Shown here: one piece after another, positions 35,494-54,744 of the stretch | How positions within the stretch are numbered: the first letter of the stretch is position 1 | Layout of the letters: each line of letters opens with the position of its first letter | Assembly (NCBI RefSeq): GCF_007004645.1 | Contig: NZ_ML660019.1 | Coordinates: forward strand, 516,437-580,436 | Length of the DNA stretch: 64,000 bases | Direction of reading: 5' to 3' | Origin: Aliiroseovarius halocynthiae | GTDB taxonomy: Bacteria > Pseudomonadota > Alphaproteobacteria > Rhodobacterales > Rhodobacteraceae | Position numbers and translations under genes: made by a program | The notes under the pieces: generated by a model | The model's database searches: none | Told to the model about the DNA's origin: nothing | What the model saw: the letters and a program-made list of their open reading frames with translations, nothing else

Positions 35494-35569
35494 ACCTTTC
35501 TTCATCCCTGAGTTTCGCCGTACAACTGCGGGGAGGGTGGGAAAACTGCTCCGTTCAAAGGCAGTATGT

Positions 35570-36397
35570 ATGAGATATCTATTGGCAATCCTGGTGGCGG
35601 CTCTTTTGCTAACCAGACCTTTGGGGGCGTCTGATCCGTCGCCTTTGCGCACCCTGATGACCGGGGACGAAAGCAAGGGATGGGAAGCCGTTGGGCGTTT
35701 GAATATAGGCGGTGGCAGTTTCTGCACCGGGGCTCTGATCGGTGAAAATCTGGTGCTGACTGCCGCACATTGCCTCTTTGACCGAGACAGCGGAGAGCGG
35801 TTCAAGCTGTCTGAAATCGAGTTTTTGGCCGGTTGGCGTGGGGGGCGGGCCTCGGCCTATAGGGGCGTTCGGCGTGCAGTCGTGCATCCAGACTATGCTT
35901 ATACCCCATCAAAACAATCGCCCAACGTGGCCAAGGATTTGGCACTTCTTGAACTGGAAAAGCCGATCCGCAACAGCTCAATTATACCGTTCCAGACTTT
36001 TTCGCGACCGCGTAAGGGGGATGAGGTGGGCGTCGTCTCCTATGCTCATGATCGCACGGAAAGTCCTGCGCTGCAGAAAACCTGCAAAGTTCTGGCGCGT
36101 CAAAGCGGAGTGCTGGTTCTAAACTGCACTGTGGATTTCGGATCTTCGGGTGCGCCGGTTTTTGTTGTCGAGGGTGGTGAACCACGCATAGTGTCCGTGA
36201 TTTCGGCCAAAGCAATGGTTCGGGATATTCCAGTATCTTTGGGCACTGATTTAGAGACGCCGCTGGCCGAGATGTACGAAATGCTGGCTGCTGGCGACGG
36301 TGTGTTCACTCGGGTCGAGACCGTGCAGGAACCGAAAGTCCGAAAATTTGGAACAGGCGCGGCGGGCCCCGGTGGGGCCAAATTCATGCGCCCTTAA
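35570..36397 (+). CDS. Secreted trypsin-like serine protease, copy 1
   Basis: A 275-residue S1-family protease with a signal peptide (residues 1-20, RYLLAILVAALLL core). The catalytic triad is complete: His67 (LTAAHC), Asp123 (KDLALLEL) and Ser193 (FGSSGAPVF). ATG 35570 is chosen over the upstream GTG at 35537, which lies too close to its purine tract. The C-terminus ends GGAKFMRP, echoing the neighbour. A periplasmic or exported peptidase; the target is unknown. The next gene begins 12 bp later. Confidence 0.9.
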   Translation: MRYLLAILVAALLLTRPLGASDPSPLRTLMTGDESKGWEAVGRLNIGGGSFCTGALIGENLVLTAAHCLFDRDSGERFKLSEIEFLAGWRGGRASAYRGVRRAVVHPDYAYTPSKQSPNVAKDLALLELEKPIRNSSIIPFQTFSRPRKGDEVGVVSYAHDRTESPALQKTCKVLARQSGVLVLNCTVDFGSSGAPVFVVEGGEPRIVSVISAKAMVRDIPVSLGTDLETPLAEMYEMLAAGDGVFTRVETVQEPKVRKFGTGAAGPGGAKFMRP

Positions 36398-36409: not shown

Positions 36410-37219
36410 ATGAAACTTATTCTGCCTTTTCTGTTGTCAGTATGGCTGGTGCCGCATATCGCGCATGCGCAAGACAGCGCCGCCGGATTGAAGCGGTTGA
36501 CCCTCCGCAGCGATCTTCTGGGGTTCGAAGCCGTGGGGCGTTTGGATATGCCCGGCGGGTTCTGTTCAGGTGCGTTGATCGCAAGCGACTTGGTTCTGAC
36601 TGCGGCCCATTGCATCGAAGATGCAGTGGCGAAAGGGTCGCTTGAGGGCCTGAAGTTCTTTGCGGGTCTGCGTGACGGAGAATTCGTGGAAGCCAGCGCG
36701 GCGAAGCTTGCTGTGATGCATCCAAGTTATGATACGGGCCCAAATCCCGGTGTTCGAAACATCCGATATGACATTGGCCTTGTGGTGCTGGAAGCCCCCA
36801 TTTCAACCGGGACGGCTGCTCCGTTCGCGGTCGAGGCTCTGTCCCAAAGTGAGCATGAAATCTCGGTCGTCAGCTATGCCCGCGGTCGGGCTGATGCTTT
36901 GTCCCGCGAGGCACGCTGTTCGGTGATGGATCGCGATCGCGATTTGATCGCGTTTGACTGCGATATCTGGTTCGGGTCTTCGGGTGCCCCGGTGTTCAAC
37001 ACATCAGGACGACGTCCACGGATTGTTTCGGTGGTATCTGCTGTTACGAACTATCAGGGGCAAAAAGCTGGGCTTGGCATGATGCTGCCGACGCGCCTTG
37101 CCGAGGTGAAACAGGCCCTGCGCGCAGGACGCGGCGTCGTTGGTGGCGCTGAGGTTAAGTCGCGCCGCATCGGTGTCGGAGGGCGCAGTGACGCCGGCGC
37201 TCGGTTTGTGAAACCCTAG
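36410..37219 (+). CDS. Secreted trypsin-like serine protease, copy 2
   Basis: A 269-residue S1 protease, paralogous to the preceding gene: a signal peptide (about 1-20, ending AHA), then the same FEAVGRLDMPGG-type opening. His67, Asp121 and Ser191 form an intact triad (LTAAHC, YDIGLVVLE, FGSSGAPVF). Both copies share a C-terminal pattern GA(K/R)F(V/M)(K/R)P, here GARFVKP. Tandem duplication is the obvious origin; divergence is considerable, so it is not recent. A heat-shock promoter starts 5 bp after the stop. Confidence 0.9.
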   Translation: MKLILPFLLSVWLVPHIAHAQDSAAGLKRLTLRSDLLGFEAVGRLDMPGGFCSGALIASDLVLTAAHCIEDAVAKGSLEGLKFFAGLRDGEFVEASAAKLAVMHPSYDTGPNPGVRNIRYDIGLVVLEAPISTGTAAPFAVEALSQSEHEISVVSYARGRADALSREARCSVMDRDRDLIAFDCDIWFGSSGAPVFNTSGRRPRIVSVVSAVTNYQGQKAGLGMMLPTRLAEVKQALRAGRGVVGGAEVKSRRIGVGGRSDAGARFVKP

Positions 37220-37224
37220 CAGGT

Positions 37225-37252
37225 CTTGAACCTGCAAAAACCACACATATCT
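37225..37252 (+). promoter_or_regulatory. RpoH (sigma-32) heat-shock promoter of hsp20
   Basis: CTTG (37225-37228), 17 bp, then CATATCT (37246-37252), against the alphaproteobacterial RpoH pattern CTTG-N17/18-CYTATnT, one mismatch. Expected transcript start is near 37258-37260, giving a leader of about 83 nt before hsp20. Confidence 0.75.
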
Positions 37253-37260
37253 CTATTCCA

Positions 37261-37337
37261 CGGATGCCGCCGGGCGGGTCCGTAAACTGCCTGTCCCAAT
37301 TGGGAAGGCCTAATATTTGTCGCTTTGTGAAAGGACA
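37261..37337 (+). promoter_or_regulatory. ROSE-type RNA thermometer in the hsp20 leader
   Basis: The leader can form three successive hairpins. I: CGGA/TCCG enclosing CCGC/GCGG (37261-37282). II: GCCT/AGGC enclosing TCCC/GGGA with an AATT loop (37289-37309). III: TGTC-G-CTTT with AAAG-GACA (37318-37337), loop GTG. Hairpin III contains UCGCU (the conserved UYGCU of ROSE elements) paired with the AGGA Shine-Dalgarno, with the G bulged exactly as in known ROSE thermometers. Heat would open it and free the ribosome-binding site 4 bases before the hsp20 ATG. Confidence 0.85.
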
Positions 37338-37341
37338 CCCA

Positions 37342-37794
37342 ATGCGTAATTTTGATATGTCGCCCCTGTACCGCGCCACCGTTGGCTTTGATCAGATTGC
37401 TGATCTGATGGACCGGGTTTTGACCAATGATGTCAGCCGCGACAGCTATCCCCCGTATAATATCGAGAAGACCAACGAAGATGCATGGCGCATCTCGATT
37501 GCCGTGGCCGGGTTCACCGAGGACGAGCTGTCGGTCGAACTGCGTGACAAGGCATTGTTTGTCACCGCCAAGAAGGCCAAGGAAGAAGAGCGGACCTATT
37601 TGCACCGCGGCATCGCGACCCGTGCATTCGAGCGTCGCTTCCATCTGGCCGATCACGTCCGCGTCTCGGGCGCGATCCATGAAAATGGCATGCTGCATAT
37701 CGACCTGCTGCGCGAAGTGCCCGAAGCCCTAAAACCGCGCCGGATTGAGATTGCCGGTAAGAATGATGTCGAAGCCAAGGCCATTGAAGCCTAA
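37342..37794 (+). CDS. Small heat-shock protein, Hsp20/IbpA family
   Basis: A 150-residue sHSP. The alpha-crystallin domain (about residues 30-130) has WRISIAVAGFTEDELSVELRD and RAFERRFHLADHV, then GAIHENGMLHIDL, matching the conserved AxxxNGvL site. The N-terminus MRNFDMSPLYRATVGFDQ resembles IbpA. ATG 37342 has AAGGA upstream. It is an ATP-independent chaperone holding unfolding proteins, controlled at two levels here: an RpoH promoter and a ROSE leader. Confidence 0.95.
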   Translation: MRNFDMSPLYRATVGFDQIADLMDRVLTNDVSRDSYPPYNIEKTNEDAWRISIAVAGFTEDELSVELRDKALFVTAKKAKEEERTYLHRGIATRAFERRFHLADHVRVSGAIHENGMLHIDLLREVPEALKPRRIEIAGKNDVEAKAIEA

Positions 37795-37815: not shown

Positions 37816-37846
37816 AAGGGCGCGGCATGATTCCGCGCCCTTTTTT
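37816..37846. terminator. Bidirectional terminator between hsp20 and ribN
   Basis: A 10-bp stem AAGGGCGCGG/CCGCGCCCTT with a 7-base loop, followed by T6 on the plus strand; the minus-strand copy ends in TTCCTTAAAT. It lies 3 bp after the ribN stop. Confidence 0.85.
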
Positions 37847-37848
37847 GT

Positions 37849-38727
37849 TCAGGCCGCTTGGCGCCGTTCTTGTTCTAAAAGCCAGAAACTGGCCGCCAGA
37901 ATGATCGCAGTGCCGATCCACATGGAGCCTGTGGGCAGAAACCCGAAGACCACAAATCCCAACGCCACGTTGAAGACCAGTTTCAGGTGATCAAACGGCT
38001 GCAGGAACGCCGCATCTGCCATTGAATACGCCCGGGCAAGTACGTGCTGGGCAAAAGCCGTCAACAGGCCGGCCCCCACGACCAACCAGATCGCGGATGA
38101 GGGCAGCGTGAACCCGGTGCCAAGCGCGAGACCTGCGTTGATCGGGCTGAGCAGCAGCAACAGATAGATGGTGATCGTTTCCGTGCTGTCGCGATGGGTC
38201 AGGAATTTGGTGACGACCGAGCTGGCAGCCCACAGCGCTGCCGCGCCCACGGGCAGCAGGGCCGCCAGCTGGAAGCGATCCGACCAAGGTTCCAGGATAA
38301 TCGCACCGCCGATGATGCCAAGCAGGACCGCGCCCCAACGATGGACCGAGACGTCCTCTCGCAGCACCAGCCCTGCGCCCAGCGTCACAAAGAAGGGTGA
38401 CAACAGGATCAGCGCAATTGCTTGCCAGATCGGTACATGGGCCAGCCCCAGCGTCCAAAGCTGCACGCCTCCTGCCGCCAATGCGACCCGTAATATGTGC
38501 AGCCATACCTGCCCGGTTTTCATCACCGCAGCCCGATGACGAAACACCCATGGCAGGTAAAAGCCAAGCGCGATCAGATATTGCCAGAAAGTGACGGCAG
38601 GGGCCGACGCGCCCTTGCCCATGGTTGCCGATTGCAACCCCGTATTGACCAGCGCAAACGTCGCGCCCGCCAGAACCATAAGCCCCGCCGCGTGGGCAGG
38701 TTGAGTAAGATAAGTTGACTGAGTCAT
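37849..38727 (-). CDS. ribN: Riboflavin transporter RibN (DMT/EamA family)
   Basis: A 292-residue protein with about ten helices and two EamA-like repeats (DMT superfamily). The family alone would not give a substrate, but its mRNA carries a complete FMN riboswitch, the hallmark of RibN, a riboflavin importer known from alphaproteobacteria such as Rhizobium and Ochrobactrum. ATG 38727 is 7 bases after AAGGAC; a longer open frame upstream is the riboswitch region read as codons. It imports riboflavin across the inner membrane. Confidence 0.88.
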   Translation of the reverse strand: MTQSTYLTQPAHAAGLMVLAGATFALVNTGLQSATMGKGASAPAVTFWQYLIALGFYLPWVFRHRAAVMKTGQVWLHILRVALAAGGVQLWTLGLAHVPIWQAIALILLSPFFVTLGAGLVLREDVSVHRWGAVLLGIIGGAIILEPWSDRFQLAALLPVGAAALWAASSVVTKFLTHRDSTETITIYLLLLLSPINAGLALGTGFTLPSSAIWLVVGAGLLTAFAQHVLARAYSMADAAFLQPFDHLKLVFNVALGFVVFGFLPTGSMWIGTAIILAASFWLLEQERRQAA

Positions 38728-38773: not shown

Positions 38774-38803
38774 AGGGCACACGGATCCCGCGCACCCCAA
38801 CCC

Positions 38804-38977
38804 ATTCTCTTCCATCCGGACTTTAACCGTCGGCTCTGGAGTTGCACCAGATCTGCTGTCCCAAGTGTTTCGCCAGAAACACGAAGCGCTCGCGGGCTTT
38901 GTTTTTGTGCGAGACACATGAAAATGATCCCGCAAAAAACTTACCGCCGGTGGGGAATTCCACCCCGCCCTGAGAAT
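38804..38977 (-). promoter_or_regulatory. FMN riboswitch (RFN element)
   Basis: All conserved blocks are present in order on the minus strand: ATTCTC (P1 5' side), CAGGGCGGGGTG, CCCCACCGGCGGTAA, AGCCCGCGAGCG, GGTGCAACTCCAGAGCCGAC, GGTTAAAGTCCGGATGG, and GAGAAT (P1 3' side). FMN binding would fold the aptamer and favour the downstream hairpin covering the ribN ribosome-binding site. Confidence 0.97.
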
Positions 38978-39007
38978 GTCACCACCCCGGCTGGGGCAGC
39001 GATGGGG

Positions 39008-53758: not shown

Positions 53759-54571
53759 TCAGATCTTGACCTCGACACCAGGCAGGTTCAGGGCCTTCAT
53801 CAGCTCGCGCAGTTCCTGACGTGCGGCCACGTTGGAAATGTTCATTTGCCCCATCACACCGATGTCGCGCAGGTCCAAAAGGGTCAAGCCGCGGGTGAAC
53901 AGCTCGCGGAAAATGACACGCTCGTTAAAGCCAGGGGCCGCGCGGAAGCCGATGCGGCGCGAGAGCTCTTCGATCGCATCCCCCATCTTCTTCTTGTTGT
54001 GCATCATCTGAGCGCCCAGACGGTTGCGCACGACGACCCAATCCATCGGCTTTAATCCAGCTTTTGCACGCAGTTGTCGGGCGTTCCAGACCATCTCGGA
54101 ATAGACCGAGGGGCCGGTTACTTTGCCAGTGGTTGGCTCGGTCCGTGCCAGCAGGTCGAAGTCTACGAAACTGTCATTCAATGGGGTAATCAGTGTATCA
54201 GCCAACGAATGCGCCACTTGGCTAAGGCGGGTATGCGATCCGGGGCAGTCGATCAGGATGAAGTCCTGACTGTTCTCCAGTGATGCGATGGCCATGGCCA
54301 AACGGCGGTCATAAGGGTTCTCGCCCTCTTTCAGATCCGCAGGGTCGACCTCGGGCAGCTCGTGATACTCTGGCGAGGGCAGCTCTTTGCCTTCACGTTC
54401 CATCGTGATCTTGCGATTTTCGATAAAGCGGCCAAAGGTTTGCTGGCGAAGATCCAAATCCAGCACACCCACGCGGTGCCCCAATCGCGACAGAGACGTT
54501 GCCACATGCATCGACACGGTGGACTTGCCCGCACCGCCCTTTTCGTTCCCGACAACAATAATATGTGCCAC
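53759..54571 (-). CDS. mipZ: Division-plane positioning ATPase MipZ (ParA family)
   Basis: A 270-residue P-loop ATPase with the deviant Walker A EKGGAGKST (Lys11, Lys16), and MipZ-specific sequence (DLDLRQQTFGRFIENR, LNDSFVDFDLLARTEP, VVVRNRLGAQMMHNKKKM). In Caulobacter it binds ParB at the poles and inhibits FtsZ, placing the division site. Many alphaproteobacteria carry it. It is divergent from the Lin0512 genes across a 266-bp gap. Confidence 0.93.
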   Translation of the reverse strand: MAHIIVVGNEKGGAGKSTVSMHVATSLSRLGHRVGVLDLDLRQQTFGRFIENRKITMEREGKELPSPEYHELPEVDPADLKEGENPYDRRLAMAIASLENSQDFILIDCPGSHTRLSQVAHSLADTLITPLNDSFVDFDLLARTEPTTGKVTGPSVYSEMVWNARQLRAKAGLKPMDWVVVRNRLGAQMMHNKKKMGDAIEELSRRIGFRAAPGFNERVIFRELFTRGLTLLDLRDIGVMGQMNISNVAARQELRELMKALNLPGVEVKI

Positions 54572-54744
54572 GCCACTATCCCCGGTATCTTGAGTGTTTT
54601 TATCTTTCGGCCACTATATGTCGCATCATTCGCAGGGGGAAGAGGCACAAAACCAATTTGTATAACTCTTTCTTGAAGGCGTTTCATTTTTGTCTAACGG
54701 CAGCCTCAAGGGTAGACATTCCACATCTAATCAACGTTGGTAGT

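Follow-up and report, generated by a model that had tools for sequence, protein, structure and literature searches.

The leader of hsp20 in the 64,000-nt stretch of DNA analyzed here (the window) is, with a probability of about 0.88, a ROSE-type RNA thermometer placed behind an RpoH promoter. This pairing of promoter and leader had been proposed from the DNA letters without any database search, which we call the sequence-only reading, and it fits every comparative test. The Hsp20 protein has its nearest named relatives in Aliiroseovarius species, at up to 96-97% identity, and by that similarity the window belongs to Aliiroseovarius, in the marine Roseobacter group. The features of the locus are collected in Table 1; the terminator given there was absent from the output of a simple terminator scanner.

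Table 1. Features of the hsp20 locus in window coordinates, with bulged bases in square brackets.
Feature	Coordinates	Strand	Basis
RpoH-type promoter: -35 CTTGAA 37225-37230, 13-nt spacer, -10 CACATAT 37244-37250	37225..37250	+	84/88 family leaders
Hairpin I, bulged G37266, U[G]CC / GGG motif	37260..37283	+	comparative pairing; -11.4 kcal/mol at 37 C
Hairpin II, GCCU[G]UCCC-AAUU-GGGAAGGC, bulged G37293	37289..37309	+	comparative pairing; -11.6 kcal/mol at 37 C
Hairpin III, presumed thermosensor, UGUC[G]CUUU-GUG-AAAGGACA, bulged G37322, covers Shine-Dalgarno (SD)	37318..37337	+	RNAalifold and comparison; -4.4 kcal/mol at 37 C
AGGA ribosome-binding site, 6 nt 5' of start codon	37332..37335	+	sequence
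hsp20, 150-aa small heat-shock protein, ATG at 37342	37342..37794	+	Pfam PF00011, E 3.2e-19
Probable intrinsic terminator, GGGCGCGG-7nt-CCGCGCCC-TTTTTT, 3' of hsp20	37818..37846	+	by eye from sequence

The three hairpins lie where the sequence-only reading had put them, and there is covariation in all three. Its length of 77 bases for the element does not stand, as the leader comes to about 82-85 nt given the predicted transcription start near 37257-37260. Hairpin III has the ROSE pairing, U(U/C)GCU against AGGA with a bulged G. Here UCGCU at 37320-37324 faces AGGA with the G bulged, the outer pairs being U37318-A37337, G37319-C37336, U37320-A37335, and C37321-G37334, and the pairs inside the bulge C37323-G37333, U37324-A37332, U37325-A37331, and U37326-A37330. 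The spacing of 6 nt from AGGA to ATG is the commonest among 88 orthologous leaders. Of 97 leaders, 96 have hairpin III as their weakest, and the median energies at 37 C are -12.6, -12.6, and -4.2 kcal/mol for hairpins I, II, and III. A subgroup of seven leaders (L027, L046, L047, L048, L059, L074, and L105) has a longer hairpin III loop, and ATGAGGAT replaces GGAGGAT, giving UCGCUC...AUGAGGAU; the bulged G and the SD pairing are retained in it.

The promoter had been described as near-consensus, which is too generous about its -10. CTTGAA with a CCCANAT-like -10 is found in 84 of the 88 family leaders; with the upstream bases shuffled, the count averages 1.6 and reaches 6 at most. The -10 of hsp20 itself scores only 5/6 against the family consensus and is only moderately close. 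By the sigma32 consensus of PMC3669281, which we used as the measure (CTTGAA, 13-18 nt, and a CNCCATAT-type -10), the sequence qualifies as an RpoH-type promoter with an imperfect -10. The strict pattern CTTGAA-N13-CACATAT has only 2 matches in the 3.39-Mb genome and none when the pattern is read backwards across it; the second match (C10:36088) has no evident heat-shock gene 3' of it. In sister Aliiroseovarius species, the spacer sequence drifts while both hexamers and the stems are kept. In most leaders, TTGA stands 36-40 nt 5' of hairpin I, and from this near-fixed distance it follows that transcripts should start just 5' of hairpin I and contain hairpins I-III; a start 3' of hairpins I and II, which would have spoken against the sequence-only reading, is not borne out. 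The genome has an RpoH gene (370 bits against a cut-off of 323), and in R. sphaeroides both RpoH paralogues require TTG in the -35 (PMC3441632). From the promoter sequence, we infer that hsp20 would be transcribed in an RpoH-dependent manner from CTTGAA/CACATAT.

A skeptic might take the hairpins for a chance fold of a GC-rich leader, and could cite the folding-energy z-scores of the window leader, which at -0.1 and -0.7 are not above chance, and the lack of a match to the Rfam ROSE models in the window. The comparative evidence makes this explanation next to impossible, as it is ruled out by the covariation, by the single match in the genome, and by the breadth of occurrence among genera. Relatives of hsp20 were found in 246 of 248 family genomes, each genome a different genus, and the 88 family leaders were taken from the best-scoring of these relatives. 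From 38 leaders aligned by plain MAFFT, and with no prior structure, RNAalifold recovered hairpin III with the same bulge, so the UCGCU/AGGA pairing named in the sequence-only reading is arrived at unprompted. Hairpins I and II were not recovered from this first alignment because hairpin I loops differ in length, a problem overcome with short sequence-motif anchors and model-based realignment. When the 3' partners are shuffled in a sequence-anchored test, there is excess pairing at the outer pairs of hairpins I and II, and for most of the hairpin I outer pairs none of 2000 shuffles matched the observed pairing. In hairpin III, the pair outside the core occurs as A-U, G-U, and G-C, and the pair inside it as C-G, U-A, and U-G.

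A first covariance model, R1, was built from 13 leaders including that of the window, and it recovered the remaining leaders. In the 97-row alignment that this gave, standard pairs fill 93.8% of the cells. Both-sided change is seen at 21 of 24 pairs and affects 284 cells, where shuffles give 69; the signal collapses once partners are slid by 1-3 columns. Model-based alignments lean to their own structure, and more weight should go to the anchored tests and the slid controls. A second model, R2, has 60 rows without the window row, on an alignment made by R1, which did have the window. R2 scores the window element at 62.7 bits (E = 8e-11 in 134 kb), and across the 3.39-Mb genome that element is the sole match up to E = 10 (E = 2e-9). 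R2 finds a match in 224 of the 248 genera of the family, so the combination of RpoH promoter and ROSE-type leader is near-universal before hsp20 in the Roseobacter/Rhodobacter family. The family matches come one per genome, in all but one case among the matches listed, and at the family loci inspected the element directly adjoins the hsp20 start.

Across the class, R2 has a match in 81 of 337 genomes, and almost all the loci inspected beyond the family encode an Hsp20 downstream, L124 being an exception. In 65 elements from other alphaproteobacterial families, pairing extends to 96.3% of cells and both-sided changes number 277, where shuffles give 76, so that the comparison of orthologous leaders for compensatory changes, offered as a check by the sequence-only reading, finds the structure conserved in both sets. 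R2 also matches named gammaproteobacteria, such as Thiorhodococcus, at E = 5e-7 to 4e-6. One Hsp20 leader, in a planctomycete-labelled Candidatus Kuenenia MAG (L182), is very like that of an alphaproteobacterial Hyphomonadaceae MAG (L185), and its contig is probably a binning error.

The proposed mechanism is that in the cold hairpin III would pair UCGCU with the AGGA ribosome-binding site and block initiation. It would be the weak hairpin because of its bulged G and A-U-rich stem, and warming would open it while hairpins I and II remain folded, as a 5' scaffold or as mRNA protection. Heat would raise RpoH activity too, with the effect that transcription and translation of hsp20 increase together. 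Melting of hairpin III and heat-induced translation are what we infer for this leader. In P. putida ibpA, whose comparable two-hairpin leader follows a sigma32-type promoter, such a course was demonstrated, as the SD hairpin melts and hairpin I does not (PMC3669281), and in the ROSE-like element of P. stuartii oppF removal of the bulged G reduces heat induction (PMC11342760).

Energy-based folding complicates the cold state. With 15 coding bases included, the window leader has an SD pairing probability of 0.12 at 25 C, which is not dominant, because UCGC can pair instead with GCG at the start codon; below about 30 C, this is the preferred fold, with AGGA in the loop. An alternative would then be two exclusive repressed folds, in which UCGC pairs either with the SD or with the GCG straddling codons 1-2 (AUGCGU), so that cold may hide the start codon, not the SD, and warming frees both. 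The start-codon fold is the predicted minimum for the window at 10-30 C, and at 25 C the SD is paired with a probability under 0.5 in 31 of the 88 orthologues; 57 of the 88 prefer the SD hairpin. We consider this alternative improbable, in that the start-codon fold needs an Arg codon CGN where at least 4 of the 88 leaders use AGA, SD pairing is backed by covariation at the core-flanking pairs x1-w1 and y1-z1, and energy models underrate ROSE hairpins. By these predictions, either fold, SD-paired or start-codon-paired, would hinder initiation. In silico melting of the window leader alone gave a predicted SD accessibility that does not rise with temperature; the energy model is without the non-canonical pairs described for ROSE, for whose NMR structure we follow PMC11342760, and the outcome is treated as a limit of the method and not as evidence for or against.

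The same leader might also be conserved for mRNA stability, or for protein or sRNA binding, with no real temperature sensing and with heat control by RpoH only. The high GC content and great stability of hairpins I and II would suit this explanation, as would the capacity of 5' hairpins to protect mRNA. Against it, the SD-pairing motif with its bulged G is absolutely conserved, and in other ROSE-like elements heat induction falls or disappears when the bulged G is removed (PMC11342760, PMC3669281). The explanation is very improbable, and a thermometer remains the preferred reading.

The covariance-model search with ROSE families that was suggested as a check does not reach the thresholds. Neither the window nor the element itself is matched by Rfam RF00435 (ROSE, gathering 45 bits), which also has nothing above the cut-off in 190 class genomes. 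RF01832 (ROSE_2, gathering 65 bits) likewise leaves the window without a match, and its best score among six loci scanned is 22.9 bits. Relaxing the search to E ≤ 10 brought up no ROSE match either. Working in the other direction, R2 matches 7 of 8 sub-threshold RF00435 loci in other alphaproteobacteria (L094-L101), at E = 2.5e-7 to 2.7e-3; hence, as judged by these model scores, the element is likely homologous to RF00435 ROSE, the Rfam models being narrow. Because public RNA models miss the element, genome annotations are without it. The element otherwise has the makeup of the ROSE-like class, being a 5' leader of a small heat-shock gene that overlaps the SD, with an imperfect pairing of U(U/C)GCU and SD around a bulged G, and with hairpins within the range of two to four, the 5' ones stable and the last weakest.

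Like RF00435, the Bradyrhizobium hspA type, it leads a small heat-shock gene, its hairpin I has the same bulged G before CC/GGG, and its 3' hairpin sets U(U/C)GCU against AGGA with a bulged G. It differs in that the Rfam consensus has a long, bulge-free middle hairpin where hairpin II shows its conserved bulged G, and a last hairpin extended by CCAU/AUGG and a closing helix where hairpin III is short. With the short ROSE-like thermometers of Pseudomonas ibpA, it shares the RpoH-type promoter, U(U/C)GCU over the SD, and a stable 5' hairpin, although those have two hairpins in about 62 nt and not three in about 82-85 nt (PMC3669281). The ROSE-G motif likewise has a bulged G in the anti-SD strand, but it reads CUGCU, has another G bulged out of the SD strand, and stands before ABC transporter genes (PMC12857270).

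A 2014 paper cites over 40 ROSE-type elements from alpha- and gammaproteobacteria (PMC4166951). Within the Roseobacter clade, a 2011 paper devotes one sentence to ROSE-like motifs 5' of ibpA and hspD of Nautella sp. R11, its main text giving no sequence, structure, conservation, or promoter (PMC3230580), and combined sigma32 and ROSE-like control was published for P. putida ibpA (PMC3669281). The novelty claimed for this lineage in the sequence-only reading was therefore overstated. ROSE-like leaders in one strain of the clade and RpoH-plus-ROSE control in Pseudomonas are already known, and the hsp20 leader is a further well-supported ROSE-type case.

What may be less familiar is that the bulged G recurs in every hairpin. 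A single G is inserted between the halves of the 5' arm in 94, 85, and 97 of the 97 rows for hairpins I, II, and III, and in 63, 57, and 65 of the 65 elements from other alphaproteobacterial families. The UYGCU/AGG hairpin with its bulged G is present in all 97 rows of the first set and all 65 elements of the second. In unconstrained folds at 25 C that form the three hairpins, the single-base 5' bulge is a G in 65/74, 73/76, and 78/80 cases in the first set (hairpins I, II, and III) and in 36/40, 36/39, and 52/53 in the second. We came across no description of bulges in all ROSE hairpins in the literature examined, with the founding papers (Nocker 2001 and Chowdhury 2006) outside its scope, and we offer the three-hairpin bulged G as a lead, not as a priority claim. 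It could mark an undescribed alphaproteobacterial ROSE subfamily, with the ROSE-type bulged G held in all three hairpins while the neighboring pairs vary; on that view, the upstream hairpins would not be passive scaffolds and would share in sensing, in stepwise melting, or in tertiary packing. We regard this as tentative and somewhat unlikely. The role of the ROSE 5' hairpins is not fully understood (PMC3669281), and the all-hairpin bulged G turns it into a clean, testable question.

The neighborhood of hsp20 holds two similar trypsin-like protease genes in tandem immediately 5' of it (35537-36397 and 36410-37219, + strand), the second confirmed by Pfam PF13365. On the other side, an FMN riboswitch at 38800-38981 (- strand; RF00050, 108.7 bits) lies upstream of an EamA-family transporter gene at about 37849-38724 (- strand), probably for a RibN-type riboflavin transporter.

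Elsewhere in the genome, contig C8 has a second Hsp20 gene (L002/L240, about 54170-54700, - strand) with its own RpoH-like promoter. Its leader reads CTTGCA...CCCATATT, has a single 5' hairpin, with GUGUCGCUUAUUCAAGGACGUGU ahead of the ATG, and is a compact two-hairpin ROSE-like leader that the three-hairpin model barely detects (17.9 bits, E = 0.1). It is conserved in sister Aliiroseovarius (L241-L246) and more diverged in L255-L257. Two Hsp20 genes with ROSE-like leaders in one genome match the arrangement in Nautella R11, also of the Roseobacter clade, where each of two small heat-shock genes has such a leader (PMC3230580).
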